A stretch of DNA of 64,000 nucleotides, from positions 1-64,000 of the forward strand of contig NZ_BIXZ01000006.1 of assembly GCF_005406125.1 (NCBI RefSeq). Reading direction: 5' to 3'. Below the pieces are notes generated by a model. That model did no database searches. It saw nothing but the letters and a program-made list of their open reading frames with translations, and was not told the DNA's origin. The position numbers and the translations under genes are program-made. Source of the DNA: Haloarcula mannanilytica (GTDB taxonomy: Archaea; Halobacteriota; Halobacteria; Halobacteriales; Haloarculaceae). This document shows positions 47,415 through 62,344 of this stretch, piece after piece. Within the stretch, counting starts at the first letter, position 1, and each line of letters starts with the position of its first letter.

Positions 47415-48293
47415 TCAGCCCAGTCGCCTCCGCACCCGTGACGCGAGCCAGTCGCTCGTGATGACCAGCCCGAACACGGCGAGGATAGCAGTCAGGAGTT
47501 TCCCGTACTGCAGCCGCTGGATCGTGATGACGAGGTAGTATCCGATGCCGCCCGCGCCGACGAACCCGAGGACAGCGGCCGACCGAATGGTACACTCCCA
47601 GCGGTACAGCGTGTACGAGGCAATCGTGGGCGTCACCTGCGGGACCATCCCGTGACAGACCGCCTGGAGCCGTGTCGCGCCGCTCCCGGCGACCGCCTCG
47701 GTCGTCCTCGGATCCGTGTCTTCGAGGAAATCGGCGTACAACTTCCCCAGGACACCGGCGTTGTGGACCGCCAGCGCGAGAACGCCAGCAAAGGGACCGA
47801 GACCGATAGCGGTGACGAACAGGAATCCCCAGACAATTCCGGGGACGGACCGCAGGAAGCTCAGTACACTTCTGCTGGCGTGATAGATGCCACGGCCGAC
47901 GGCGACACGCCAGGACGGGGCGGTGGTGTACAGCGGCCCGCGATGCGTGACGGTGGCAGCACTGGTCAGCCCTAGCGGGACGGCGAACACGACTGCGAGC
48001 GTGGTTCCGACGACACTGATCGCCAGTGTCTCGACGACAGCCCACAGCAGTCCATCCCGCAGACCTCGGCCCAGCAGATACTCGCGGCTCGTCTCCGGTG
48101 GAAATCCGTCGGCTACGAACGCGACCATCTGCTCACGAGCGCCGGCGGAGAGCAGGGCCATCGGGTCTACTTCGGCGATCCACGCCGCGAGGGCGAAGAT
48201 GAGACAGCCGGCCAGTAGTGTCGTGAGCTGGCGTTTCGAGAGTCCACCATCACTGTAATCGGCCGCGTTCGGACCACTATATCTCTCAGACAT
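47415..48293 (-). CDS. PhnE-like ABC transporter permease
   Basis: A 292-residue permease with about six TM segments. The region [20 protein letters not shown] and following [16 protein letters not shown] form the EAA loop that docks to the ATPase, as in PhnE of phosphonate importers. It starts inside the ATPase stop (ATGTCTGA overlap). It is the last gene of the operon yqeC-mocA-ridA-phnD-phnC-phnE-like. Substrate in this setting is unlikely to be simply phosphonate; a selenium oxyanion, an oxoacid such as molybdate-like anions, or a purine derivative should be considered. Confidence 0.82.
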
Positions 48294-49104
48294 ACCACGC
48301 GGGGGACGGGGTATCGTTCTCTGCTTTTGGCTGCCTGGCAGCTGTGTCCGGCGTGGACGCGCCTGCTGCAAATAGGGCGTCGAGCTGGTCGTCGCTCACC
48401 GCTTTCGGGGTTGTGTCGAATCTGATACGGCCATCGGCGATACCGACGATCCGATCAAAGTGTTCCAGTGCCAGCTCAACCTCATGGAGAGCGGTAACGA
48501 GCAGTTCCCCGTCGAGGACAGCGCCGAGTACGTCGATGACGTTCCGGCGAGAACTGGGGTCGAGGTTCGCTGTCGGTTCGTCGGCGAGGACGACTTCGGC
48601 ATCCTGCATGAGTGCTCGGGCAACGGCGACGCGTTGGCGTTCGCCGGCGCTCAGGGAGTGTACGGGAACGTTGGCCCGTTCCGCCAGCCCAACCGCAGCC
48701 AACCGTTCGAGGGCGGGCTCGGGATTTCGCGGCACAATCGGCTCGAGAAACCCACGGACCCAGGACAGCGCGCCGACGCGCCCGCTCAGGACGTTCGACA
48801 ATGCCGTCCGCCGGTCGACGAGCGTCTCCCCCTGATAGGCAAGCGTTACAGCCGAACCTGTGATCGTGGCCCCGCCGAACGTCACTGTTCCCGTATCGGG
48901 TCGCAATGCGCCGGCTGCCAGCCTGAGCAGCGTGGTCTTGCCGGCACCCGACGGGCCGATAACCGCGACCCGCTCACCGGCTTCCAAACTGAGCGACACC
49001 TCTCGAAGCGCGAACTCCTCGCCGAACCGCTTGGTCACGCCGTCGAAGACGAGCCGTCGACGCGGTCGCGTCCCCTGCGACTGTGCTGTGGGCGTGTCCC
49101 TCAT
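48286..49104 (-). CDS. PhnC-like ABC transporter ATPase
   Basis: A 272-residue ATPase with Walker [17 protein letters not shown], signature [17 protein letters not shown], Walker [17 protein letters not shown] and the switch His in [14 protein letters not shown]. Similarity is to PhnC-type phosphonate-importer subunits. The ATG at 49104 overlaps the binding-protein stop (ATGA), which fixes the start; the long in-frame extension upstream is Arg-rich and not protein-like. Confidence 0.87.
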
Positions 49105-49976
49105 CTGCTTCCTCCCTGTTCGATGCCAGCCATTTCGACGGCGGTCTCTAGCGAGGTGAACGCCTCGTGGCTCACCCCAACGTATCTGTCGACGGCTTGC
49201 TGGTCGAGAATGTCTGTTCGGCCCTTTGCATCGAGGCTCGTGAACGCTGCCCGGACGGCATCTGCTGTCGTCGCTTCCAGCGATGGGGCGACGGCCCACG
49301 GGTAGTCCGGGAAACCGGGCGTTCGCCAGAGCTCTCGAACCCCTTCGATCACGCCGTCCGCGCGTAATCTATCGTAGATACGGGCGTTTAGCGCTCCGAC
49401 AACGCCGTCAGTCCGGCTGACTGTTTTCGCCGTTGCGTCGTGAGCACCGACGTGGGTGACCTGTGCGAACGCTTCGGTGTGCAGCTCGTACTCCGTCCGA
49501 AGATGGTACGTCGGCATCACCGTCCCGCTGGTCGAGAGCGGGTCGCCGAACACCAGTTCAGTCTCGCTCGCGGTCTCGACCACCTCCGCCATCTCCGTTA
49601 GGTCACCGTCCGCCGGAGCGATGAACACGGAGTGCCACTCCGTCTGTCCGTCCTTTGACCCGACGACCACTGGCGTCGCACCGGCCCGGTGATGTGCGAG
49701 AACGTATGATACACCCCCGTAGTAGGCGATGTCGACTTGCTCCGCTACCATCGCCTGGACCATCCCGGCGTAATCAGCCGCAGTACGGAGTTCGATTTCG
49801 ACGCCGAGTTCCTCCGCCAGATACGCCGCAAGCTCCGTGTTCTGTTCGATGGCTGTATCCGGATCGACATCCGGCACGATACCGACGGTCACTGTCGGCG
49901 TCGCCGTGCTTCCGAGACAGCCGGCCAGCGAGAGTGCTGCCGCTGTGCCCAGGAACCCGCGCCTCGTGTGCTGCAT
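49101..49976 (-). CDS. PhnD-like Tat lipoprotein, ABC substrate-binding protein
   Basis: A 291-residue binding protein with a Tat lipoprotein signal at the N-terminus ([18 protein letters not shown]). The mature part has [39 protein letters not shown]-type PhnD signatures (here [20 protein letters not shown]), and [20 protein letters not shown], the YxS/W ligand pocket region of the phosphonate/phosphite-binding group. The ATG at 49976 places the signal at the start. It is encoded between the ridA-like gene and the ATPase. The ligand cannot be deduced. Confidence 0.85.
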
Positions 49977-50061
49977 GTACCCTCCGATGGTGATCCACCA
50001 GGCTTGAAACTTGTGTGGGACACATCTCGGGTGGTCCGGAACAGAAACCCTGTGTGACCCC

Positions 50062-50473: not shown

Positions 50474-51091
50474 TCACAGGCCGCTGTGGCGGTCGGAGAA
50501 CTCCTCAAGGTCGGATTCAGTATCGATATCGCGGTGGATACCAGGGTCCGCCACTTCGATTACTGCCGCCCCGTCGTGGGTTTCGATGAGTTCCCGACCG
50601 CCGCGGTCCCCGGAGACGGAGGCGAGCGTCTCGAAGTGGCGGCTGTCGAAAAGCACGGGGTTGCCCCGCTGTCCATCGTGTCCGGGCGCAACGATAGTCG
50701 CCGTCCCTGATCGGTAGGTGTCGATCAGCCGCTCGATTGTCCCCGGCCGCACGAACGGCATATCGCCCAGCAGGAACAGGGCTGCGTCCCAGCCGGATTC
50801 CTGTGCGTAATCGACGCCGTGGCGCACGGACGTACTCTGCCCTGCCGCGTACTCGTCGTTGTCCCGTTCCTCCAGTGCCAACCCGGCCAGCGTCTCCGCG
50901 ACAGCCACGCTCTCGTAACCGAGGACGGCGACGGTTTCCGACAGCGACGACTCGCATGCGGTTTCGGCGACGTGCCGGACGACTGCTTTGCCGTCGATGG
51001 TCGCAAGCAGTTTGTTGCCAGACTCGTACCGTGAACTCTGCCCAGCGGCAAGGATGACACCGCCGACTGTTGTCCGGTCCGCCGTGTTCAT
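50474..51091 (-). CDS. mocA: Molybdenum cofactor cytidylyltransferase (MocA)
   Basis: A 205-residue nucleotidyltransferase: VGGVILAAGQSSRYESGNKL is the MobA/MocA signature with the NTP loop, LFLLGDMPFVRPGTIERLI carries the metal-binding GDMP, and GQRGNPVLFDSRHFETLASV follows as in MocA. MocA makes the cytidine dinucleotide form of the Mo cofactor used by xanthine dehydrogenase-type hydroxylases. It is 42 bases downstream of yqeC and serves the two hydroxylases encoded from 56 to 62 kb. Confidence 0.9.
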   Translation of the reverse strand: MNTADRTTVGGVILAAGQSSRYESGNKLLATIDGKAVVRHVAETACESSLSETVAVLGYESVAVAETLAGLALEERDNDEYAAGQSTSVRHGVDYAQESGWDAALFLLGDMPFVRPGTIERLIDTYRSGTATIVAPGHDGQRGNPVLFDSRHFETLASVSGDRGGRELIETHDGAAVIEVADPGIHRDIDTESDLEEFSDRHSGL

Positions 51092-51133: not shown

Positions 51134-51916
51134 TCAGTCATTGCTCGCCTCCCGCTCAGGTGTCGCAGTGACGACTTCACAGATGCCTGCCTCGAACGAC
51201 GTAACAATTCCCCGAGAACACCGCGAAGTCTGCGATAACGCATCGGTGAGTACCGCCTTGGCCGTCTGTCGCCGAGATTCAGTGTCGGCCTTGTTGACAA
51301 GCGGTATCACAGTCGCCTCGGATGGAGCGTTCCGCAGGCCTCCGGCAGGATGGGTGAGTACCGTCCCGACAGCCATCGCCGTTATCGTGTCGCCTACGTC
51401 GAGGGCGGTGATGGCCGCAACCCGCTCCGGTCGGTGAACCACGTCCGTTGTCAGTGTCTCGCCGACAACAGCGACCGATGCGACCGGGACGACGTGGGTC
51501 GCCGTGCTTGGGATGACTGGCTCCCCGCTACCGGGGGCTTTGAACTCCCGCTTGCGTGCGCCGTCGGCCTTGACGAGCAGCCAGTCGAACAGCCCGCTGT
51601 CGGCTATCCGGTCGACCACTTCCGGCTCGAAACCGCGAACTTTCCGTTCCACTCGCTCCGGGTCGGCCACACTTTCATGGGCAAAAGCAACCGGTGGCTC
51701 CTTGGCTGTGAGATCGGACCGCCATTCGTCAGGACCAGTCAGCACTATCGGCAAGTCAGGTGGTGGCGGCATCGCCGTCGTCGTCGTGTACCCGACTGCG
51801 TCGCCGTCGCTGGTCCCTTCGGCGGTCAGTTGGCCCATCGCGGTTTTCTTCCCGCCAGCCCCGACGAGGGCCACAACGGCACTGGAACCCAGCCCCAGCG
51901 CGTCAGCCAGGTGCAT
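51134..51916 (-). CDS. yqeC: YqeC-like selenium-dependent hydroxylase accessory protein
   Basis: A 260-residue protein with the YqeC pattern: HLADALGLGSSAVVALVGAG followed by GKKTAMGQLTAE (P-loop), TTTTAMPPP, DWLLVKADGARKREFKAPG and VIPLVNKAD. YqeC is a P-loop protein found only with selenium-dependent molybdenum hydroxylases; its exact step in adding selenium to the Mo centre is unknown. I start it at the ATG at 51916, from which the LVGAGGK loop lies at residues 16-22. A TATA-like TATTTTTG lies about 26 bases upstream, consistent with a leaderless mRNA. Confidence 0.85.
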   Translation of the reverse strand: MHLADALGLGSSAVVALVGAGGKKTAMGQLTAEGTSDGDAVGYTTTTAMPPPPDLPIVLTGPDEWRSDLTAKEPPVAFAHESVADPERVERKVRGFEPEVVDRIADSGLFDWLLVKADGARKREFKAPGSGEPVIPSTATHVVPVASVAVVGETLTTDVVHRPERVAAITALDVGDTITAMAVGTVLTHPAGGLRNAPSEATVIPLVNKADTESRRQTAKAVLTDALSQTSRCSRGIVTSFEAGICEVVTATPEREASND

Positions 51917-52007: not shown

Positions 52008-52256
52008 ATGCCTCGCGTAGACGTTCGCGGTGAAATCTGTCCCCGACCGGCGCTCATCGTCCGCCAGGCGCTTGCAGACCTCGACACCGGCGAGATCCTC
52101 ATTGTTCGGGGGGATTACCCACCAGCCGAAGAGAACCTCCGCCGGATGTGTACCAAGCATGGGATCGACGTGACAGCCACAGAAACCACCGCCGAGGCCG
52201 ATGAGTTCGAACTCAAACTCCAGGTAACCGAGATGGCATCGTTATCGGAGGCCTGA
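52008..52256 (+). CDS. TusA/SirA-family sulfur (selenium) carrier
   Basis: An 82-residue TusA-like protein with the active-site motif EICPRPALIVRQAL; the acceptor Cys is Cys11 in the CPxP motif. TusA relays persulfide sulfur from cysteine desulfurase to acceptors; SirA-like proteins are also found with selenium genes. It ends two bases before the selD GTG, with GGAGG in its 3' end acting as the selD ribosome-binding site, so the two are coupled. In this locus I infer that it may carry sulfur or selenium to SelD or to the Mo cofactor. Confidence 0.85.
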   Translation: MPRVDVRGEICPRPALIVRQALADLDTGEILIVRGDYPPAEENLRRMCTKHGIDVTATETTAEADEFELKLQVTEMASLSEA

Positions 52257-52258
52257 GC

Positions 52259-53299
52259 GTGGGACGTGACGCGGAGACTGACGGCGACGACCGGCCGACC
52301 CGCCTGACGGAGTACACGGAACTCCACGGGTGTTCCTGCAAGGTCGGGCAAAGCGACCTCGATTCGCTCCTTGACGATGCGGGTCTCTCCGGTAACAGTG
52401 ACCAACTGCTGTTTGGCATCGGTGCGGACGCCGCTGCACGGCGACTGACCGACGACCTTGCGCTGGTTTCAACGGTGGATTTCTTTACCCCTATCGTCGA
52501 TGACCCGTACGACTTCGGCCGAATCGCGGCCTGCAACGCCGCCAGCGATGCCTTCGCCACGGGCGCGGTCGAGAATCTCGACTGCCTGGTGGTCCTCGGG
52601 CTACCGCGGGAACTGATCGACAGCGCGGCACCGATCCTTGCCGGCATGGCTGACGCGCTGGACGGGATGAACGGCGTTATCGCTGGCGGCCACACCATCA
52701 TGAGTCCGTGGCCCTTTGCCGGCGGCGCTATCTCGGCGACGGCCCACCCTGAAACCCTGCTCACCGCGCAGGGAGCCAGCCCCGGCGACCACCTCTACCT
52801 GACCAAACCGCTCGGGACCCAGCCGGCGATGGGGGCGACCCGCGTGACTGACGAGCAGTTCGTCGCGACGGTTACCGATGCCACTGACCGCCCACTCGAC
52901 CGGATCGCCTCGGAGGCCGTTGCGTGGATGAGGACGCCGAACCGCGACGCGGCACTCGCGTGCCGCGAGTTCGCTACTGCCGCGACCGACATCACCGGCT
53001 TCGGCCTCGCCGGACAGAGCCGTGTGGTGGCTGCCCGCTCGAACGTCAGTATCGAACTGACACACCTTCCGGTCATCGCAGGAACGCCCTCCCTCTCGTC
53101 CCTTTTCGGATATGGACTGACTGACGGCGAGAGTGCAGAGACCAGCGGCGGACTGCTCCTCTCTGTCCCGCCGGCTGAGACAGATGCTATCGAATCGGCC
53201 CTCGATGAGGCTGGCGTGTTCTATCGGGCTGTCGGGCGCGCCACGGCCGGACGCGGCGTCACTCTTGACGACCCGACTATCGAAGAAGTCAGTCGCTAA
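52259..53299 (+). CDS. selD: Selenide, water dikinase (selenophosphate synthase)
   Basis: A 346-residue SelD. The N-terminal GCSCKVG (Cys25, Lys28) is the active-site Cys/Lys region of the family, here Cys rather than Sec. Then come GIGADAAARRLTDDLALVST, the VDFFTPIVDDPYDFGRIAA motif that binds ATP phosphates and metal, and AGGHTIMSPWPFAGGAIS. It makes selenophosphate from selenide and ATP. No selA, selB, tRNA-Sec or selU-type gene is seen nearby; with YqeB and YqeC this is the orphan SelD type that supplies labile selenium to molybdenum hydroxylases. Start is GTG with a good Shine-Dalgarno sequence. Confidence 0.92.
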   Translation: MGRDAETDGDDRPTRLTEYTELHGCSCKVGQSDLDSLLDDAGLSGNSDQLLFGIGADAAARRLTDDLALVSTVDFFTPIVDDPYDFGRIAACNAASDAFATGAVENLDCLVVLGLPRELIDSAAPILAGMADALDGMNGVIAGGHTIMSPWPFAGGAISATAHPETLLTAQGASPGDHLYLTKPLGTQPAMGATRVTDEQFVATVTDATDRPLDRIASEAVAWMRTPNRDAALACREFATAATDITGFGLAGQSRVVAARSNVSIELTHLPVIAGTPSLSSLFGYGLTDGESAETSGGLLLSVPPAETDAIESALDEAGVFYRAVGRATAGRGVTLDDPTIEEVSR

Positions 53300-53316
53300 T
53301 GTCGATTAGGAGCGTT

Positions 53317-54897
53317 CTACTGGAATCGAAGCACCGCCTCCAGCACGCCACCGCCGAGGCAGAGCGCCTTGTCGGAGATTTTTGTCGGGTCGACAGAGTC
53401 GCCCCGAGGGTCGACATCGCCGAGTTTCGTCCCTTCGCTGACGCTGAGGCCGCCGTGGACCAGGCCGCGAACGAGGCCGCCGATTTCGGTTTCGACCGGC
53501 TGGTCGCCGACGGTACCGACCACGTCGCCGGCTGTGACACTGTCTCCGATGGCGACCGCTGGGTTCCACTCACCGTCCGCGGGGGCACGAAGCACCCGTT
53601 CGTGGGTGTAGCCACGGCGCTCGCCGGGCTCGCCGTCGTACTCACTCGCGGTCCCCTCGTAGAACACGCGGCCGAGTTCGTGCCCGCGGTCCGTTTCGAC
53701 GACGGCGTCCACATCCTCACCAGCCTCGAACCCGGGTCCCATCCCGACTACTACCTCGGCATCTGTTCGGCGCGTGCCGGTGTCGAACTGCCCCTTCGCC
53801 ATGATGCCGTCGACGAGAACCGCGGCGTCGAGTTCGCTGGCGACGGTCGCGTCGGGGTCAACGAGTACCGGGACGACATCGTCGGCGAGGAGTTCGAGTG
53901 CCGCATCGACATCCGAGGCTGCCCGGGCGGTGATTCCCTCGACCGTCACCTCGTCTTCGTACAGCGCCGCACCGAAGGCGACCGCCCGCCGGACGACCGT
54001 CGGCTGCTTGACTTCGGTGACGATGACCGGGAAGCCGGCCTGCTGGAGGCGGTAGACCACGCCACTGCCGAGGTCGCCGCCGCCGCGGACCACGACGAGG
54101 TTGTCGAGGTTCAGGCGTGCAGCCCGCTCGCCGGTGGCGTCGTGGCGGTCCATGGTGACTTCGGCGAGAATCGAGAGCGCGACGGCGGCCGGCCCGCTCC
54201 CACCGAGGTCGAGGCCAACCGGTGTCCGGACCCGACAGAGGTCCCGACGAGCGTAGCCCGCCGCGGCCAGCGAGTCGAGGACATGTTGGGCTTTCGTCTC
54301 GCTGGCGACGAGGCCGACATAGCCCGCCTCGCCGTCCAGCGCCGCGGCGACGGCGTCTTGGTCGAAGGTTCCGCTCCGCGTCGCAACGGCTACCGCTGTT
54401 TCGCTCCCCATCGGAAGGTCGCCAAGCGCTTCGCCGTAGTCGCCGTGAACCACGTCAGTGTCGTCGGGAAACTGTGCCGGGTCGGCGTAGGCTTCGCGGT
54501 CGTCGACCACCGTGACGGCGTAGCCCAGTCGCTCCGCCAGCGGAGCCAGTTCGACGCCGATGTGGCCGCCACCGGCGATGTAGAGCCGCGCCTGCCCGCG
54601 AACGTGGTCGATAAACACGTCCATCTCGCCGCCACAGACCATACCCGTGTTGCCGCCGCGTTCGAGTTCGTACGTTCGGACGCCGGGGTCGTCGGCTCCC
54701 GAAAGCACCGCTCGGGCGTCCTGTATGGCGAGGTGCTCGACAGTGCCGCCACCGATAGTGCCGTACTCCTCGTCGGCAGTGACGACCATCTTGTCACCCA
54801 CATCCCGCGGCGCGCTGCCGTCCTTGCGGACGATGGTTAGCAGCGCCGCTGGTTCCCCGCGTGCGGCCAGTTCGTCGAGCCGTTCGAACAGGCTCAT
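53317..54897 (-). CDS. XdhC-YqeB fusion, molybdenum hydroxylase maturation and selenium accessory protein
   Basis: A 526-residue fusion. Residues 1-255 are XdhC: LLTIVRKDGSAPRDVGDKM, MVCGGEMDVFI with Cys88, and a Rossmann domain ARLYIAGGGHIGVELAPLAE. Residues 266-526 are YqeB (EF2563 family): NLVVVRGGGDLGSGVVYRLQ, VVRRAVAFGAALYEDEV, ILVDGIMAK-like AVLVDGIMAKGQ and a lipoyl-like end with AIGDSVTAGDVVGTV. XdhC sulfurates and inserts the Mo cofactor into xanthine dehydrogenases; YqeB is the conserved partner in selenium-dependent forms. The fusion implies that the two act at the same step. The start at 54897 overlaps the tusB-like stop (ATGA). It converges on selD. Confidence 0.88.
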   Translation of the reverse strand: MSLFERLDELAARGEPAALLTIVRKDGSAPRDVGDKMVVTADEEYGTIGGGTVEHLAIQDARAVLSGADDPGVRTYELERGGNTGMVCGGEMDVFIDHVRGQARLYIAGGGHIGVELAPLAERLGYAVTVVDDREAYADPAQFPDDTDVVHGDYGEALGDLPMGSETAVAVATRSGTFDQDAVAAALDGEAGYVGLVASETKAQHVLDSLAAAGYARRDLCRVRTPVGLDLGGSGPAAVALSILAEVTMDRHDATGERAARLNLDNLVVVRGGGDLGSGVVYRLQQAGFPVIVTEVKQPTVVRRAVAFGAALYEDEVTVEGITARAASDVDAALELLADDVVPVLVDPDATVASELDAAVLVDGIMAKGQFDTGTRRTDAEVVVGMGPGFEAGEDVDAVVETDRGHELGRVFYEGTASEYDGEPGERRGYTHERVLRAPADGEWNPAVAIGDSVTAGDVVGTVGDQPVETEIGGLVRGLVHGGLSVSEGTKLGDVDPRGDSVDPTKISDKALCLGGGVLEAVLRFQ

Positions 54898-55139
54898 ACG
54901 AAGCTTTTGACCTCCTGTTCGACGATGGCATCGACTACGTCGTCGTAGGATATGCGGTCGATGTCCGGCGGGAGGCCGACCCCGCGAACGTCTACGTCTC
55001 TCTCGACCGCCGAAACGGGCGCATCGATATCCGGCGAGAGGTAGACGCCGTCCTGAATGAGGACGACGCGAGCCGCGGGGTCCCCGGCAGCGGTTCGCAG
55101 TCCGATCTCGGCCATCGGTTTGTCGATGAGATACAGCAT
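54894..55139 (-). CDS. DsrH/TusB-like sulfur-relay subunit
   Basis: An 81-residue protein with MLYLIDKPMAEIGLRTAAGD, then VVLIQDGVYLSPDID and a C-terminal DIDRISYDDVVDAIVEQEV. Size, the LIQDGVY strand-turn and position after two DsrE/F-like genes mark it as TusB/DsrH-like. No Cys is present, as is usual for a structural subunit. It lies 2 bases after the tusC-like gene and overlaps the XdhC-YqeB fusion by four bases. Confidence 0.75.
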   Translation of the reverse strand: MLYLIDKPMAEIGLRTAAGDPAARVVLIQDGVYLSPDIDAPVSAVERDVDVRGVGLPPDIDRISYDDVVDAIVEQEVKSFV

Positions 55140-55141
55140 TG

Positions 55142-55495
55142 TCAGAAGTCCAGTGTTCGGTCGGCCTCGCGGATGCGGGCGGTGACGCGGTCGCCCGACC
55201 AGACCGCCACGTCGTCGGCGATTTCGCTCTCGTCGACACCGCGCTCTGCCATCGCCGCGCCGTCCGCGACCATCTGTCCGTCCTGTTCCGCCAAGTCGGC
55301 GACGTGCCCGCTCATGTTGAGCGCGTCACGGTCGACAGCCGCCCGAGCGCCGTACACGCCGTCTTCGGTGAACAACACCGTCACGTCGTGCCTCTCAAAG
55401 CCGGCTGCGACGCCACGGGCCGCGCGCAGTCCCTCCGGGATGTGGACCCTGCCGTAGGGGGCACGGGTCAGCATCACGACAACGTCTCGCTTCAT
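55142..55495 (-). CDS. DsrF/TusC-like sulfur-relay subunit
   Basis: A 117-residue DsrE-superfamily protein: VVVMLTRAPYGRVHIPEGLR, VTVLFTEDGVYGAR and DVAVWSGDRVTARIREAD. The first and second segments are the conserved strand-helix-strand of DsrF/TusC. It has no cysteine, in keeping with a structural role beside a catalytic DsrE. Start ATG overlaps the stop of the upstream gene (ATGA). Confidence 0.78.
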   Translation of the reverse strand: MKRDVVVMLTRAPYGRVHIPEGLRAARGVAAGFERHDVTVLFTEDGVYGARAAVDRDALNMSGHVADLAEQDGQMVADGAAMAERGVDESEIADDVAVWSGDRVTARIREADRTLDF

Positions 55496-55863
55496 AGCGA
55501 GACCACCCGGTCGGCTTCGCCGATGATGTCCGCGAGGTCCGGGAGCAACCCGACTTCGACGCCCTCGGGGTAGTCGTCGGGGGCGTCGATTCCGCGCGCG
55601 TCGACACAGAGCCCACAGCAGATGACTTCTGCACCGTCCGCGATGAGTTCCTGGAACTTCTCGGTCGGCATCTCGTCGTACAGCCCGGTGTCCGAACAGC
55701 CGGGAAGCGTCTGATCAGCGACGGGGACGAGCGCGCCGTCGAGGTAGTGGAAGTAACTCACCTCGTGGCCCTGGTCCAGTGCCGTCCGCCCCAGCTCGTA
55801 GGCGGTGCGCCAGCGCTCGCTGTCGAAGGGACCGCCTGTCAGCAGAACCCCGATGTACGCCAT
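55492..55863 (-). CDS. DsrE/TusD-like sulfur-relay subunit (catalytic type)
   Basis: A 123-residue protein: AYIGVLLTGGPFDSERWRTA, a QGHEVSYFHYLDGA strand and, at residues 81-87, ICCGLCV. The cysteines at 82, 83 and 86 occupy the position of the persulfide-carrying Cys of DsrE/TusD. With the two following genes it makes a DsrEFH/TusDCB-like set that could pass sulfur or selenium from TusA to XdhC-YqeB. The ATG at 55863 is directly 25-30 bases downstream of TTAAGA, fitting a leaderless transcript. Confidence 0.8.
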   Translation of the reverse strand: MAYIGVLLTGGPFDSERWRTAYELGRTALDQGHEVSYFHYLDGALVPVADQTLPGCSDTGLYDEMPTEKFQELIADGAEVICCGLCVDARGIDAPDDYPEGVEVGLLPDLADIIGEADRVVSL

Positions 55864-55964: not shown

Positions 55965-58439
55965 TTACCGTTCACCACCTGCCTGCTCGTCGAGTGCCGC
56001 CTTCACGTCGTCCGCGGTAAACGGCAGTTCGGTGAGCCGAACGCCGACGGCGTCGCGGATGGCGTTGCTCAGGGCCGGCGGGACGCCGTTCGTCGGGAGT
56101 TCTGCGATGGATTTCGCGCCGAATGGGCCCGTTGGTTCGTGCGTTTCGACGAGGATGGTCTCCATCTCGGGATGGTCCGTCGTCCGTGGCATCCCGTACT
56201 GGCGGAACCCAAGCACGTCGGGGTTCCCGTCGTCGTCGAACGAAAGGCCGCCGCTGGTGGCGTATTCGAGGCTCATGTGCTCGCCACCCTCAATCTGCCC
56301 CTCCACCAAGGCAGGATTGATGGCGACGCCGCAGTCGGCCGCGAACACCAGTTTGTTCAGGTCGTACTCACCCGTTTCCTCGTTGACCGTCACGTCGACG
56401 AACTGTGCCCCGTAGGGCGGGGGACTCTCGTCGGTCGAATGATTGCCGTCCCCGAGGATGTGTTCGCGCTGGTCGTCGCCGTAGGTGGCTTCGTAGCCGA
56501 TTTCCTCAAGCGACGCGCGGTTCCCGGTCTCCCTGCTGTACACCCTGCCGTCACCGGTATCCAGCACTTCCGGCGGCTCGTCGAGTAGCTTTGCCCCCCA
56601 CTCCAGTAACCGCTCTTTGGCGTCCTCGGCAGCGTTCTTGACTGCGCGACCGCTGATGTACGTCGTCGAGGAGGCGTAGGCGCCGTAATCGAAGGGGGTC
56701 AGGTCCGTGTCGGCGGCGATGACGACGACATCCTCGGGGGGACAGCCAAGCACTTCGGCAGCTATCTGGGAGAACATCGTGTCCGCACCTGTCCCGGTGT
56801 CGACGCCGCCGACTTGCAGGTGAAAGCTCCCGTCCTCGTTCATTTTCACCTGCGCCGCGCCGAGTTCCTTGCCCGCGACGCCGCTGCCCTGGGCGATGAG
56901 TGCCATCCCGACGCCGCGGTGTAGATGGTCAGCCTCGGGCTGTTCGAGGTCGTCGTAGCCGATTGCTTCCTTTCCGCGCCGGACGCATTCGCGGATGCCA
57001 CACGAGCGGATTTTCCGAGTGAACCGGTCGCCGTCTTTCAGGATAGCAACGCTCCGGTCGAGGTCACCCTCTCGAACCGCGTTCTGCAGGCGGAACTCGA
57101 TTGGATCGAGGTCGAGGCGGCGGGCCACCTCATCCATGTGGGACTCGACGGCAAAGTGGCCCTGTGGCGCGCCGTAGCCCCGCATCGCCGCCCCCATCGG
57201 GAGATTCGTGTGTACTACATCCCCGGAAAAGCGTACGTTGGGGACCCGAGGATAGAGGGGGAGCGGCTTCGTCCCGACGTTGTTCGCGACGGTCATCCCG
57301 TGGGTGCCGTAGGCTCCCGAGTTCGACAGCGTGTCGAGGTCCATCGCCTCGATGTCGCCGTCATCGGTCACGGCGGTCTTCATCCGCATCCGCATCGGGT
57401 GGCGAAAGCGCAACGCGGTGAACTCCTCGCGTCTGGTCATCTCCAATTTGACCGGACGGCCGGCTGCCAGGTGGAGCGCGAACGCGATTGGTTCTATCGC
57501 CATCTCCTGTTTCGAGCCAAAGCCCGCGCCGATACGCGGCTTTGTCACCCGCACGTCACGGATGGGCACGTCGAACAGGTGGGCGATCTGCCGGCGCGTG
57601 TGAAAGGGAACCTGCGTCGACGTGATGAACACGTGCCGGTCGTCCTCGTCCGTGTAGGCGATGGTCGTGTGTGGCTCCGGGACGCAGTGGGACTGGTACG
57701 GTGTCTCCCACGTCGTCTCGATAACGCGGGCGTTGTCCCTATCTCCGGCGTTCTCGAACGCGGCGTCCACGTCACCGATTTCTCCCTCGAAGTGCGATTC
57801 GAGGTTTCTGCTGTAGTCCGCGCCCGATTGCTTGTTTTCCACCTCATTGGCCTCGAACAGTTGCGGGGCGTCCTCGTCGAAGGCCTCCTCGGGGTCGAAC
57901 ACTGCGTCCAGTTCCCGGTACTCGATATCGACTTTCCGCGCGGCGCGGTCGGCTGTTTCCGGGTCCTCAGCCACGACGGCTGCGACCGGGTCGCCGACGA
58001 AACGGACGTGCTCGCGCAGTACTGTCAGGTCCCACGGGCTCGGTTCGGGATAGGACTGGCCCGAACTGGAGTACAGTTTGTCCGGGACCACGTCGTCAAA
58101 GGGCGTGATGACGGCGTCTACCCCCTCCAATGCCTCGGCAGCGCTCGTGTCGACTGATTCGACGTGGCCGTGGGCGATGTCGCTGCGAACTACCTTCCCG
58201 TGGGCGAGGTCCGGGAACCGGTCGCGGTAGTCCGCTGTGTAGCGAGCCTCGCCCGTGACGATCTTCCGAGCGTCGTCTTTCTCCGCATTCGTCGTGATGT
58301 TCTCGCGCTCATCCGGGGCCTTGCGGTCCGGCTCACTGGCCGCGTCGTCCACTGTTCCGCTGGTGGCCGCTTTCTCTTCCTCCGCCCGTGCGCTGTCGGT
58401 TCCGTCGTCGAGGTCCGATGCCTTCTCCGAGTCGCTCAT
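55965..58439 (-). CDS. Molybdenum hydroxylase (xanthine dehydrogenase/aldehyde oxidase) large subunit 1
   Basis: An 824-residue Mo-binding subunit without signal peptide. An acidic, probably disordered tail of about 70 residues precedes RKIVTGEARYTADYRDRFPD. Motifs include GAGFGSKQEM (canonical GGGFGGK), AMRGYGAPQGHFAVESHMDE, GGVDTGTGADTMFSQIAAEV and, near the end, GPFGAKSIAELPTNGVPPAL with the catalytic Glu. It would hydroxylate a purine-like or aldehyde substrate at a Mo centre carrying, in this locus type, selenium. It overlaps its [2Fe-2S] subunit gene by four bases. It is a paralogue of the protein at 59099-61549. The N-terminal acidic tail is not usual for the family. Confidence 0.9.
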   Translation of the reverse strand: MSDSEKASDLDDGTDSARAEEEKAATSGTVDDAASEPDRKAPDERENITTNAEKDDARKIVTGEARYTADYRDRFPDLAHGKVVRSDIAHGHVESVDTSAAEALEGVDAVITPFDDVVPDKLYSSSGQSYPEPSPWDLTVLREHVRFVGDPVAAVVAEDPETADRAARKVDIEYRELDAVFDPEEAFDEDAPQLFEANEVENKQSGADYSRNLESHFEGEIGDVDAAFENAGDRDNARVIETTWETPYQSHCVPEPHTTIAYTDEDDRHVFITSTQVPFHTRRQIAHLFDVPIRDVRVTKPRIGAGFGSKQEMAIEPIAFALHLAAGRPVKLEMTRREEFTALRFRHPMRMRMKTAVTDDGDIEAMDLDTLSNSGAYGTHGMTVANNVGTKPLPLYPRVPNVRFSGDVVHTNLPMGAAMRGYGAPQGHFAVESHMDEVARRLDLDPIEFRLQNAVREGDLDRSVAILKDGDRFTRKIRSCGIRECVRRGKEAIGYDDLEQPEADHLHRGVGMALIAQGSGVAGKELGAAQVKMNEDGSFHLQVGGVDTGTGADTMFSQIAAEVLGCPPEDVVVIAADTDLTPFDYGAYASSTTYISGRAVKNAAEDAKERLLEWGAKLLDEPPEVLDTGDGRVYSRETGNRASLEEIGYEATYGDDQREHILGDGNHSTDESPPPYGAQFVDVTVNEETGEYDLNKLVFAADCGVAINPALVEGQIEGGEHMSLEYATSGGLSFDDDGNPDVLGFRQYGMPRTTDHPEMETILVETHEPTGPFGAKSIAELPTNGVPPALSNAIRDAVGVRLTELPFTADDVKAALDEQAGGER

Positions 58440-59011
58440 GGCTCGCCTCCCGAGCAGTCACACCTGCCGGGCGGACAGCCCGAATCAAGCATTCTACCGT
58501 CCGCATCGTCTTGTGGCCCGCCGTCAGTCGCGACCGCGCGTTCACCCTCCAGTCGGTCGGCGGCGTCCAGCACCGCTTCGACGATTTTCTTGTAGCCCGT
58601 ACACCGACAGAGGTTGTCCGATAGCGCCTCGCGGACCTCCTGTTCTGTCGGGTCGGGGTTCTCGTCCAGCAGTGCTGTCGAGCGCATAATCATCCCCGGG
58701 ATGCAGAAGCCACACTGTAGCGCGGTGTTGTCCACGAAGGCCTGCTGGACCGGGTGCAGGTCGTCCTGCTCGCCCAGGCCTTCGATTGTCTCGACCGACG
58801 CGCCGTCTGCCTTGGCCACCGGCGTCACGCAGGATGTCACCGGTTCGCCGTCGACGTGGACCGTACAGAAGCCACAGGCTCCGGTGTCACACCCCCGCTT
58901 TGCCCCGGTGTACCCGTTTGCCCGCAGTACGTCGAGGAGAGAGTCTGCCTTCGACGCCTCGAACGTCTCCGTCTCACCGTTCAGTTCCAGTTCGATTTGC
59001 ATATGGCTCAT
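58436..59011 (-). CDS. Molybdenum hydroxylase [2Fe-2S] subunit 1 with Cys-rich tail
   Basis: A 191-residue iron-sulfur subunit. The plant-type cluster ligands are complete (Cys41, Cys46, Cys49, Cys61 in GCDTGACGFCTVHVDGEPVT and after), as are those of the second cluster (Cys100, Cys103, Cys135, Cys137 in QCGFCIPGM and LCRCTGYKK). Beyond the standard end there is a Gly/Asp-rich linker and GCPPGRCDCSGGEP with three additional cysteines (179, 184, 186). It passes electrons from the Mo centre onward. Start is ATG at 59011 or, nine bases later, 59002. Confidence 0.9.
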   Translation of the reverse strand: MSHMQIELELNGETETFEASKADSLLDVLRANGYTGAKRGCDTGACGFCTVHVDGEPVTSCVTPVAKADGASVETIEGLGEQDDLHPVQQAFVDNTALQCGFCIPGMIMRSTALLDENPDPTEQEVREALSDNLCRCTGYKKIVEAVLDAADRLEGERAVATDGGPQDDADGRMLDSGCPPGRCDCSGGEP

Positions 59012-59098: not shown

Positions 59099-61549
59099 TC
59101 AGCCCCCGCGCTCGTCCAGTTTCGCCCGAATCTTCTCGGCAGTAATAGGCATCTCCCGGATTCGGACACCGACGGCGTCTCTGACAGCATTCGACAGCGC
59201 CGGCGGCACCGTGTTCGTCGGCACTTCAGCGACCGATTTCGCGCCGAAGGGACCCGTCGGTTCGTGCGTCTCGACAAGTATCGACTCGATGGGCGGCGTC
59301 TCAGTCGCCGATGGTAGCCCGTACTCGTCGAAGTCCGATACTTCGGCCCGGCCCTCGTCGTCGAGCGTGATACCCTCGCTGACGGCCATCTCGTAGCTCA
59401 TATGGTTTGCGCCCTCAATCTGGCCCTCGGCCATACCGGGATTGATGGCGACGCCGCAGTCGACGGCGACGACCAGTTTGTGGACCTCGAACTCACCGGT
59501 CTCCTCGTCGACCGTCACGTCGACGAACTGCGCGGCGAAGGGTGGGGGACTCTCCTCGGTGCAATGGGTTCCCTTCCCCAGGATGTGCTCTCGTTCGTCG
59601 TCGCCGTAGGCGGCCTCGTACCCGATCTCTTCGAGCGTGACGGAATCACCACTGTTCTCGCTGTACACTGTTCCATCGCCGGTTTCCAGATTCTCGACCG
59701 GCTCGTCGAGCAGCTTCGACCCCCAGTCGAGAATCCGCTCCTTGGCGTCCTCGGCGGCCTTCTTGACGGCCATGCCGCTGATGTAGGTCGTCGAGGAGGC
59801 GTACGCCCCGTAGTCAAACGGCGTTACGTCGGTATCGGAGGACTTGACGATTATGTCGTCCTCGTCACAGCCAAGCACCTCGGCAGCGATCTGGAGGAAC
59901 GCCGTGTCAGCGCCGGTCCCGATATCGACGCCGCCGACCTGCAGGTGGAAGCTCCCGTCCTCGTTCATCATTATCTGGGCGGCCCCGAGTTCGTCGCCGG
60001 CGACGCCGGTTCCCTGTGCGGACAGCGCCATCCCGATGCCACGATGCAGGTGGTCCGCGTCGGGCTGTTCGAGGTCGTCGTACCCGATTGCTTCCTTTCC
60101 GCGCTCGATGCACTCGGAGAGGCCACACGAGCGGATACGTCGGTTCGCCCCCTCGCCACCCATCATTCCCGCAATCTCGTCGAGGTCGCCGACTTCCATG
60201 TGGTGTCGCCGTCGGAATTCGATGGGGTCGAGACCGAGATCGCGGGCCACCTCGTCGAGATGGCCTTCCAGCGCGAGTGTCCCCTGTGGCGCGCCGTAGC
60301 CCCGCATCGCGCCGGTCTGTGGCGTGTTCGTGTGGACGATGTCGGCCTCGAAGTGGACGTTCGGGACCTTCGAGTACAGCGGCAGGGGCTTGCTCCCGAC
60401 GTTGCCCGCGACGGTCATGCCGTGGCTCCCGTACGCGCCGGTGTTCGACAGCGCGTAGATGTCGATGGCCTCGATGTCGCCGTCGTCGGTCACGGCCGTT
60501 CTGGTCCGGACTTTCATCGGATGCCGCGAGCGCATCGCGTAGAACTCCTCTTGCCGGCTGGCTTCGTACAGTACCGGGCGGTCGGTGGCCAGCGACAACG
60601 CGAGGGGAATCGGCTCGACGACCATCGCCTGTTTGCCGCCGAACCCGCCGCCGACCCGCGGTTTCGTCACCCGGATGTCGCGGATGGGAATGTCGAACAG
60701 ATGGGCGAGCTGGCGGCGCGTGTGGTTCGGGACCTGCGTACTGGTGATGAGGACGTGGCGGTCGTCCTCGTTCGTGTACGCCAGCGCAGTGTGTTTCTCC
60801 ACGTTGGCGTGGGACTGCCGGATCGTCTCCCACTCGGTCTCGTGGACGTGGGCGTCGCCGTCCAGCGCCGCGTCTACGTCTCCGAGTTCTCCTTCGATAT
60901 GGGCCATCCGGTTGCGGTTGTAGTCGTGGCCGACGATTTCGTTTTCGACCTCATCGTCCTCGAACAGTTGCGGCGCGTCCGAATCGAAGGCCGCCTCGGG
61001 GTCCGTGACGTAGTCGTCCTCCTCGTAGGACACCTCAATAGCCTCGACGGCGGCGTTCGCAGTCGCTCGGTCTTCGGCTGCGACAGCGGCAACCGGGTCG
61101 CCGATGTAGCGGACGTGCTCGTTCAGCACGTGCATGTCCCACGGGCTCGGTTCGGGGTAGGACTGCCCGGCGCTGGTGTATTTCGCGTCCGGGACCGCGT
61201 CAGATTCGGGTGTCAAGACCGCTTCGACGCCATCCATTGCTTCGGCCGTGCTCGTGTCGATGTCGGTCACGCGACCGTGTGGGATTTCGCTTCGGACGAC
61301 CGCCGCGTACGCCAGGTCGGGATATCGTTCCTCGTAATCGGCGGTGTATTTCGCTTGTCCGGTGACGAGCTTTCGGTCGTCATACTTCTCCGCCCGGTGG
61401 GAGACGCTGTCGCGTTCGTCGGGGGCCTTGTCGTTGTTCTCGGGTTCGTCCCATTCGAGCGGGTGCTCCTCGGACCGCTCGTCTTCGACGGGGTCTGACT
61501 GTGAGGCCGTGCCGCCATCCGGTTTGGCCGGCTCGTCGTCCTCACTCAT
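59099..61549 (-). CDS. Molybdenum hydroxylase (xanthine dehydrogenase/aldehyde oxidase) large subunit 2
   Basis: An 816-residue paralogue of large subunit 1, with which it shares long stretches (for example YTADYEERYPDLA, SAGQSYPEPSPWDMHVLNEH, GYDDLEQPDADHLHRGIGMA). The Mo-site motifs are nearer canonical: GGGFGGKQAM, AMRGYGAPQGTLALEGHLDE and FGAKSVAEVPTNTVPPAL with the catalytic Glu. It also has an acidic N-terminal tail of about 65 residues and no export signal. The stop-start overlap with small subunit 2 (ATGAGTGA) fixes the start at 61549. Sequence differences in the substrate channel suggest a different substrate from copy 1. Confidence 0.9.
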   Translation of the reverse strand: MSEDDEPAKPDGGTASQSDPVEDERSEEHPLEWDEPENNDKAPDERDSVSHRAEKYDDRKLVTGQAKYTADYEERYPDLAYAAVVRSEIPHGRVTDIDTSTAEAMDGVEAVLTPESDAVPDAKYTSAGQSYPEPSPWDMHVLNEHVRYIGDPVAAVAAEDRATANAAVEAIEVSYEEDDYVTDPEAAFDSDAPQLFEDDEVENEIVGHDYNRNRMAHIEGELGDVDAALDGDAHVHETEWETIRQSHANVEKHTALAYTNEDDRHVLITSTQVPNHTRRQLAHLFDIPIRDIRVTKPRVGGGFGGKQAMVVEPIPLALSLATDRPVLYEASRQEEFYAMRSRHPMKVRTRTAVTDDGDIEAIDIYALSNTGAYGSHGMTVAGNVGSKPLPLYSKVPNVHFEADIVHTNTPQTGAMRGYGAPQGTLALEGHLDEVARDLGLDPIEFRRRHHMEVGDLDEIAGMMGGEGANRRIRSCGLSECIERGKEAIGYDDLEQPDADHLHRGIGMALSAQGTGVAGDELGAAQIMMNEDGSFHLQVGGVDIGTGADTAFLQIAAEVLGCDEDDIIVKSSDTDVTPFDYGAYASSTTYISGMAVKKAAEDAKERILDWGSKLLDEPVENLETGDGTVYSENSGDSVTLEEIGYEAAYGDDEREHILGKGTHCTEESPPPFAAQFVDVTVDEETGEFEVHKLVVAVDCGVAINPGMAEGQIEGANHMSYEMAVSEGITLDDEGRAEVSDFDEYGLPSATETPPIESILVETHEPTGPFGAKSVAEVPTNTVPPALSNAVRDAVGVRIREMPITAEKIRAKLDERGG

Positions 61550-62096
61550 CGCAGCCACCTCCACAGCAGCCGGCTGACTCGCCTGGTTGGGGCGGCCCAC
61601 TGGCCGGCTGGCCGCCGTCCGCGGCGACCGACTGCTCTCCTCGCATCCGACCCGCTGCGTCAAGAACGGCTTCGACCGGCTTCTGATAGCCGGTACAGCG
61701 ACAGACGTTGTCGGAAAGCGCTTCCCGGACTTCTCGCTCGCTCGGGTCTGGGTTCGAATCCAGTAGCGCGACCGCCTGAATGATCATTCCCGGAATGCAG
61801 AACCCACACTGGACGGCGAAGTTGTCGACGAAGGCCTGCTGGACCGGGTGCAGGTCGTCCTGTGTTCCGAGCGCTGCGACGGTCCTGATTTCGCTCCCGT
61901 CGGCCTCCCTCGGGGCCATCCCACAGGCCATGCGTACTTCGCCGTCGACGAACACCTTCGACGCGCCACAGGTTCCGCCGTCACAGCCGCATTTCACGCC
62001 GATGTAGCCGTGCTGTCTCAATACCGTCGCCAGGTCGTCGGCCGACCCGGCTTCGACTGTCGTCCTTTCGCCGTTGATGGTGAGTTCGATGTCCAC
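61542..62096 (-). CDS. Molybdenum hydroxylase [2Fe-2S] subunit 2 with altered cluster ligand and Cys-rich tail
   Basis: A 184-residue subunit starting at GTG 62096: GGAGGT lies 6 bases upstream on the coding strand, an ideal Shine-Dalgarno sequence, while ATG at 62120 has none. The first cluster motif is VKCGCDGGTCGASKVFVDG: Cys38, Cys43 and Cys58 are in place but the third ligand (normally Cys46) is Ser46, and an extra Cys36 appears two residues before the motif. The second cluster is complete (Cys97, Cys100, Cys132, Cys134). The tail ends in AGCCGGGCDE with three further cysteines. First gene of the hydroxylase operon. Confidence 0.9.
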   Translation of the reverse strand: MDIELTINGERTTVEAGSADDLATVLRQHGYIGVKCGCDGGTCGASKVFVDGEVRMACGMAPREADGSEIRTVAALGTQDDLHPVQQAFVDNFAVQCGFCIPGMIIQAVALLDSNPDPSEREVREALSDNVCRCTGYQKPVEAVLDAAGRMRGEQSVAADGGQPASGPPQPGESAGCCGGGCDE

Positions 62097-62344
62097 AGAG
62101 ATACCTCCAGTATTCGGCATGCGGTACGAACACACGCCTGTTAGTGACCAACTGTGGAACAGCGTTGCATATATGTATGGTTCACAGGTTTCCGAAAGCG
62201 GTGTTGGCACACAGTGTTATTGACCCGTGGGACACACTGGCTGGGAGACGACAGATGCCGCAACTGGACAGATGGCCGCAACTGCGACAGATGTGTGGCG
62301 TGTGCCACATTTGTGGCTCGGTCACTGTCCCATTTTCCGGCCGC
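62097..62344. repeat. Intergenic region with ACAGATG direct repeats and a small hairpin
   Basis: Three ACAGATG units start at 62251, 62268 and 62287; the first two are followed by (G)CCGCAACTG, giving an imperfect 17-19 base tandem repeat. TGTGGC (62294-62299) and GCCACA (62304-62309) form a 6-bp hairpin right after. The interval lies between the M20 hydrolase stop and the hydroxylase operon start, all on the minus strand, so repeats may be regulator sites for the operon. No gene is present. Confidence 0.45.

Follow-up and report, generated by a model that had tools for sequence, protein, structure and literature searches.

A TusA-like carrier and a DsrEFH-type trio accompany the selenium-dependent molybdenum hydroxylase maturation genes of haloarchaea

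In haloarchaea, a TusA-like carrier and a trio of DsrE-, DsrF- and DsrH-like subunits are tied in a dedicated fashion to the selenium-molybdenum cofactor genes. This link is supported by a survey of 391 Halobacteria genomes, in which YqeB, SelD and the DsrE clade each occur in 30 genomes, and these 30 are identical. That the trio and TusA always accompany the selenium-molybdenum genes in haloarchaea suggests that together they supply this cofactor with selenium (or sulfur). From the analysis as a whole, we lean towards the view that TusA and DsrEFH act as a dedicated carrier of zero-valent chalcogen, most likely selenium, for the maturation of selenium-dependent molybdenum hydroxylases (SDMHs), and that they may be the haloarchaeal split counterpart of YedF. 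More narrowly, and put forward with some hesitation, they may form a relay for selenium and not sulfur, dedicated to the Mo-Se cofactor in haloarchaea and with an acceptor other than DsrC/TusE. For selenium-dependent hydroxylases, the route of selenium to SelD and to the Mo centre is an unsolved problem, and YedF is without an assigned function in the literature found. If the proposal is true, the DsrEFH complex, known for sulfur, would have been recruited to selenium, and as TusA and DsrE are separate proteins in the culturable genus Haloarcula, the steps are open to one-by-one testing.

Organization of the gene cluster

The window is a stretch of 64,000 nucleotides (nt) from Haloarcula mannanilytica (contig NZ_BIXZ01000006.1, positions 1 to 64,000). 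SelD, YqeB and YqeC are found together in its cluster, each above the curated cut-off (TIGR00476, 125 bits; TIGR03309, 220 bits; TIGR03172, 73 bits), and by gene content the cluster is of the SDMH maturation type (Table 1). On the minus strand, the DsrE-like, DsrF-like and DsrH-like genes are arranged head to tail and lead into XdhC-YqeB. The DsrF-like and DsrE-like open reading frames share 4 nt, and the DsrH-like and XdhC-YqeB frames share 10 nt (54894-54903), with the same overlap in most loci. The TusA-SelD pair on the plus strand, separated by 2 nt, runs towards XdhC-YqeB and away from YqeC. Beyond YqeC lie MocA, RidA and a PhnDCE-type transporter; the opposite flank carries a Zn hydrolase gene along with the two pairs of Mo hydroxylase genes. 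Coordinates and family scans together confirmed the original prediction that TusA adjoins selD and that the DsrE-DsrF-DsrH trio overlaps XdhC-YqeB. The PhnD of the transporter scored 171 bits against the putative selenate SBP family TIGR04553, below the cut-off of 250. At another haloarchaeal locus (L025, 13366-16293), a PhnDCE-type transporter adjoins TusA and SelD, all in one direction.

Table 1 Features of the cluster in the H. mannanilytica window. The start of YqeC is taken from the 783-nt H. marismortui gene.
Feature	Position	Strand	Details
PhnD-PhnC-PhnE-type ABC transporter, candidate selenium oxyanion uptake	47415..50000	-	PhnE over cut-off
MocA/YgfJ-like Mo cofactor nucleotidyltransferase	50474..51091	-	PF12804; TIGR03310 148 bits, below cut-off 186
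YqeC, selenium cofactor biosynthesis	51134..51916 (approximate start)	-	TIGR03172 195 bits
TusA-like carrier	52008..52256	+	82 aa; CPRP motif; PF01206 5.4e-17; directly upstream of selD
SelD, selenophosphate synthase	52259..53299	+	TIGR00476 270 bits
XdhC-YqeB fusion	53317..54903	-	selenium-dependent Mo cofactor maturation; PF02625, PF13478, TIGR03309 372 bits
DsrH-like subunit	54894..55139	-	81 aa; no Cys; PF04077 4.8e-5, under cut-off; TusB/DsrH fold
DsrF-like subunit	55142..55495	-	117 aa; without conserved Cys; PF02635 3.5e-11; best NCBIfam match TusC
DsrE-like subunit	55492..55863	-	123 aa; CCGLC motif; PF02635 1.5e-19
Mo hydroxylase large + 2Fe-2S subunits, candidate SDMH 1	55965..59005	-	XdhA-like 658 bits, under equivalog cut-off
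Mo hydroxylase large + 2Fe-2S subunits, candidate SDMH 2	59099..62210	-	XdhA-like 665 bits, under equivalog cut-off

Identity of the trio and its cysteines

The three adjacent genes encode subunits of the DsrEFH/TusBCD type, with DsrE and DsrH assigned by fold and DsrF by Pfam. The DsrE-like and DsrF-like proteins pass the Pfam cut-off for PF02635 (71 and 44 bits), and the DsrH-like protein falls slightly short for PF04077 (23.9 bits against 24.4). With the TusB/C/D equivalog models (TIGR03010/03011/03012), the trio scored 31, 24 and 19 bits, each below the respective cut-off of 94, 49 or 89. Predicted structures settle the fold of two subunits. The AlphaFold model of the DsrE-like protein best matches DsrE of A. 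vinosum (2hy5_A, 1.5e-8), with further matches to YchN and TusD, and that of the DsrH-like protein (pLDDT 95.7) best matches TusB (2d1p_C), followed by DsrH (2hy5_C). In the closest named relatives, all Haloarcula, the counterparts of the DsrE-like protein are 95-97% identical.

Across 30 loci, C83 and C86 of the DsrE-like CCGLC motif (residues 82-86) are invariant, as are TusA Cys11, located in CPxP, and Cys48 (numbering from the ATG at 52008) and C25/C27 of SelD, while no conserved cysteine is found in the DsrF-like or DsrH-like subunits. The cysteine pattern of the original prediction was recovered; of the cysteines listed there, Cys82 varies between loci and is replaced by V in one (L015). 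In a bacterial relative (L017), the first cysteine of CGIC aligns to the catalytic Cys78 of A. vinosum DsrE (2hy5_A), and, by alignment through this relative, DsrE-like Cys83 takes the position of Cys78. The CxxC motif also occurs in DsrE relatives from dsrAB or other clusters and is hence not specific to selenium.

Distribution and conservation among Halobacteria

In the survey, YqeB and SelD were counted above the curated cut-offs. Members of the DsrE clade show 63-100% identity, and the next-best DsrE in the 391 genomes reaches ~35%, apart from a single remnant. Co-occurrence of this clade with yqeB had been suggested as a check of the original prediction, and within haloarchaea the clade is present in 30/30 yqeB-positive genomes, while intact copies are found in 0/361 yqeB-negative ones. 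The positive genomes span five families and nine genera, and as each of these genera also holds genomes without YqeB, SelD and the DsrE clade, the state has changed several times, always together.

The same core block, with DsrE-DsrF-DsrH-XdhC/YqeB facing SelD-TusA, is seen in nearly all of the ~30 loci, also where the flanks differ, and the parts are still together in two rearranged blocks (L015 and L025). TusA adjoins selD in all loci inspected; at L008, L033 and L035, direct inspection located it where an overlapping yqeC frame had masked it. Given the ~30 conserved loci and a dN/dS of 0.06-0.25 for the trio, the arrangement is beyond chance. Distances among the trio proteins and XdhC-YqeB correlate at 0.84-0.92, as joint inheritance would give.

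Since the genes form a single, physically linked cluster, often on megaplasmids, co-transfer alone can yield shared presence, and the co-occurrence falls short of proof of joint function; for the latter, purifying selection and the conserved layout argue. It could be speculated that the trio serves some other sulfur or redox function, such as detoxification or sulfane sulfur handling, and is kept merely by linkage on a mobile cluster, as the frequent plasmid location and the wider family, found in a dsrAB cluster and in yqeB-free genomes, would allow. Yet, such hitch-hiking is very improbable, given that DsrE is under strong purifying selection (dN/dS 0.06-0.15) and, with a mean identity of 82%, is the most conserved of seven compared cluster proteins, that the trio has stayed in place in five families and despite local rearrangements, and that none of the 391 haloarchaeal genomes carries an intact copy without yqeB.

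Natronococcus jeotgali (G130) holds the remnant mentioned above, a 34-aa piece of DsrE running into an XdhC-like fragment with a hydroxylase gene adjoining (L018, 8001-8280; also L036). No yqeB or selD over cut-off is found in this genome, and the remnant looks like the scar of a deleted SDMH maturation module.

Comparison with known sulfur and selenium systems

The classical partners of Dsr and Tus proteins, of which the original prediction had seen none accompanying the trio, are missing from the positive genomes where tested. DsrC/TusE (TIGR03342) was found in 0/30 genomes, with a matching E. coli control, DsrA over cut-off in 0/30, where weak matches span a short part of the model, and selenouridine synthase (TIGR03167) in 0/25 genomes tested, which makes the classical roles unlikely. 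As a main role, tRNA thiolation was rejected, with the clade missing in 361/391 haloarchaea and TusE missing; dissimilatory Dsr metabolism and selenouridine synthesis were rejected on the DsrA and SelU counts, respectively. A phage origin was likewise set aside, as a DsrE match was present in 0/50,697 phage records. A second TusA is encoded on the host's own chromosome (L069, 908-2112), with DsrE2-like and rhodanese/metallo-beta-lactamase-like neighbours identified by eye. This set probably serves the host in the general handling of sulfane sulfur, and the existence of a separate chromosomal TusA makes the cluster TusA look dedicated. In the 2008 literature, H. marismortui is reported to lack a Sec system.

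The best parallel is YedF (TIGR03527), which combines a TusA domain carrying CPxP with a DsrE-like domain carrying CGxC and, in E. faecalis, is encoded between selD and yqeC-yqeB. YedF is a single fused chain of ~195 aa without DsrF or DsrH, whereas haloarchaea have a separate TusA and a three-gene DsrE set. The cluster TusA and the TusA half of E. faecalis YedF share 37% identity, and a profile comparison of DsrE with the YedF C-terminal domain (hhalign) placed C83/C86 on CGAC (E 3.4e-4 for a single comparison, probability 38%), with weak likeness beyond the motif. It is from this parallel with YedF, with its gene position, the TusA identity and the CGAC/CGLC alignment, that a carrier of zero-valent selenium is proposed. 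Fused YedF (cut-off 110 bits) was found in 0/30 positive genomes, where the TusA half alone matches. YedF has been tied to SelD by phylogenetic profile, with a predicted role in selenium metabolism (PMC5322559, PMC2276186), and reported absent from archaea (2008 and 2015).

The trio shares with DsrEFH/TusBCD (2hy5, 2d1p) the E-F-H gene order, the folds (modelled for DsrE and DsrH) and the confinement of cysteine to DsrE at the Cys78 position. It differs in the lack of DsrC/TusE or DsrA in its genomes, in the additional Cys86, which gives CGxC, and in far lower equivalog scores. The recently described DsrEFH type II (2026, PMC13293266) is also divergent, with TusA nearby, and persulfide transfer from TusA to DsrE has been proven for it in vitro; unlike the trio, it mostly occurs with reductive dsrAB in sulfate reducers, and its text names neither selenium nor Halobacteria.

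The orphan-selD/SDMH cluster on pNG700 of H. marismortui (Haft & Self 2008; Zhang et al. 2008) includes mocA, yqeC, a SirA/TusA-like gene, selD, XdhC-YqeB and hydroxylases. The trio is present there as well, with two members annotated publicly as 'DsrE family protein' and the third as 'hypothetical protein', and goes unnamed in the parts of both accounts that were covered. The original prediction knew of no described relay of this type, and this needs correction: bacterial YedF beside selD/yqeC/yqeB is known, and an account of the haloarchaeal cluster that includes the SirA/TusA-like gene dates from 2008; the trio part is undescribed in the literature found. No paper linking DsrEFH to selenium was found in the main texts of the open literature.

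A proposed route for selenium

In the proposed selenium carrier system, selenium would enter the cell, be reduced and be held as selenopersulfide on TusA Cys11 and on DsrE Cys83 within a DsrEFH complex. Most likely, SelD would next receive it from the carriers as a protected selenium donor; in addition or instead, the carriers would keep the chalcogen ready for XdhC-YqeB, the protein that would put it on the Mo cofactor. The formation of the complex, selenium over sulfur as cargo and the direction of transfer are what we infer here. SDMH clusters without the trio exist in E. faecalis and in the archaeon G565, so the trio appears dispensable for the chemistry as such.

Alternatively, TusA and DsrEFH may bring persulfide sulfur to XdhC-YqeB, with the sulfurated Mo cofactor then being selenium-exchanged or used as is. 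Ordinary Mo hydroxylases require a terminal sulfido ligand, usually provided by a desulfurase acting with XdhC, and the cluster has no desulfurase gene beside it; genes of the cysteine desulfurase type lie elsewhere in the genome. A sulfur cargo would also be in line with the overlap of the DsrH frame with XdhC-YqeB and with the DsrEFH and TusA families being proven sulfur carriers (PMC13293266). However, the partner of TusA is fixed to selD and not to xdhC, and we consider sulfur an unlikely cargo.

Less probable again is the direction favoured by the original prediction, in which the trio would act after SelD, taking activated selenium from selenophosphate to XdhC-YqeB. While the operon overlap of DsrH and XdhC-YqeB would fit this order too, selenophosphate is already an activated donor and a direct substrate for SelA and SelU. 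In addition, the literature predicts a YedF-type carrier to act before selenophosphate synthesis, around selenium supply.

Relatives beyond the haloarchaea

DsrEFH-TusA looks like a general sulfur cassette family, of which the haloarchaeal clade would be a specialised branch, and from which the trio seems to have been recruited. The wider DsrEFH family is 28-45% identical, and YqeB was found in 1/40 genomes of other Halobacteriota carrying its DsrE relatives. The original prediction was to be doubted if its DsrEFH clade proved common without yqeB; for the haloarchaeal clade this is not the case, but the wider family is yqeB-free in 39/40 genomes. The closest non-haloarchaeal relatives found are on a bacterial MAG contig (L017, 1149-8412) with dsrA-dsrB, a GltD/ferredoxin-like gene, several DsrE/F/H genes and TusA, where a DsrE (45%)-DsrF-DsrH-TusA set lies behind dsrA and dsrB. 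In the single YqeB-positive genome of the 40, the non-haloarchaeal archaeon G565 (L091, 3688-10687), YqeB is encoded near Mo hydroxylase, MocA-like and XdhC-like genes, and neither the trio nor TusA was found near this yqeB. Other Halobacteriota carry DsrE relatives that are 28-41% identical, some with DsrF- and TusA-like neighbours. In three of their loci (L082, L083 and L086), inspection by eye revealed CxxC DsrE-like genes beside apparent ArsR-type regulators, some with an Acr3-like transporter, and a role of these genes in arsenic or sulfur metabolism is possible.
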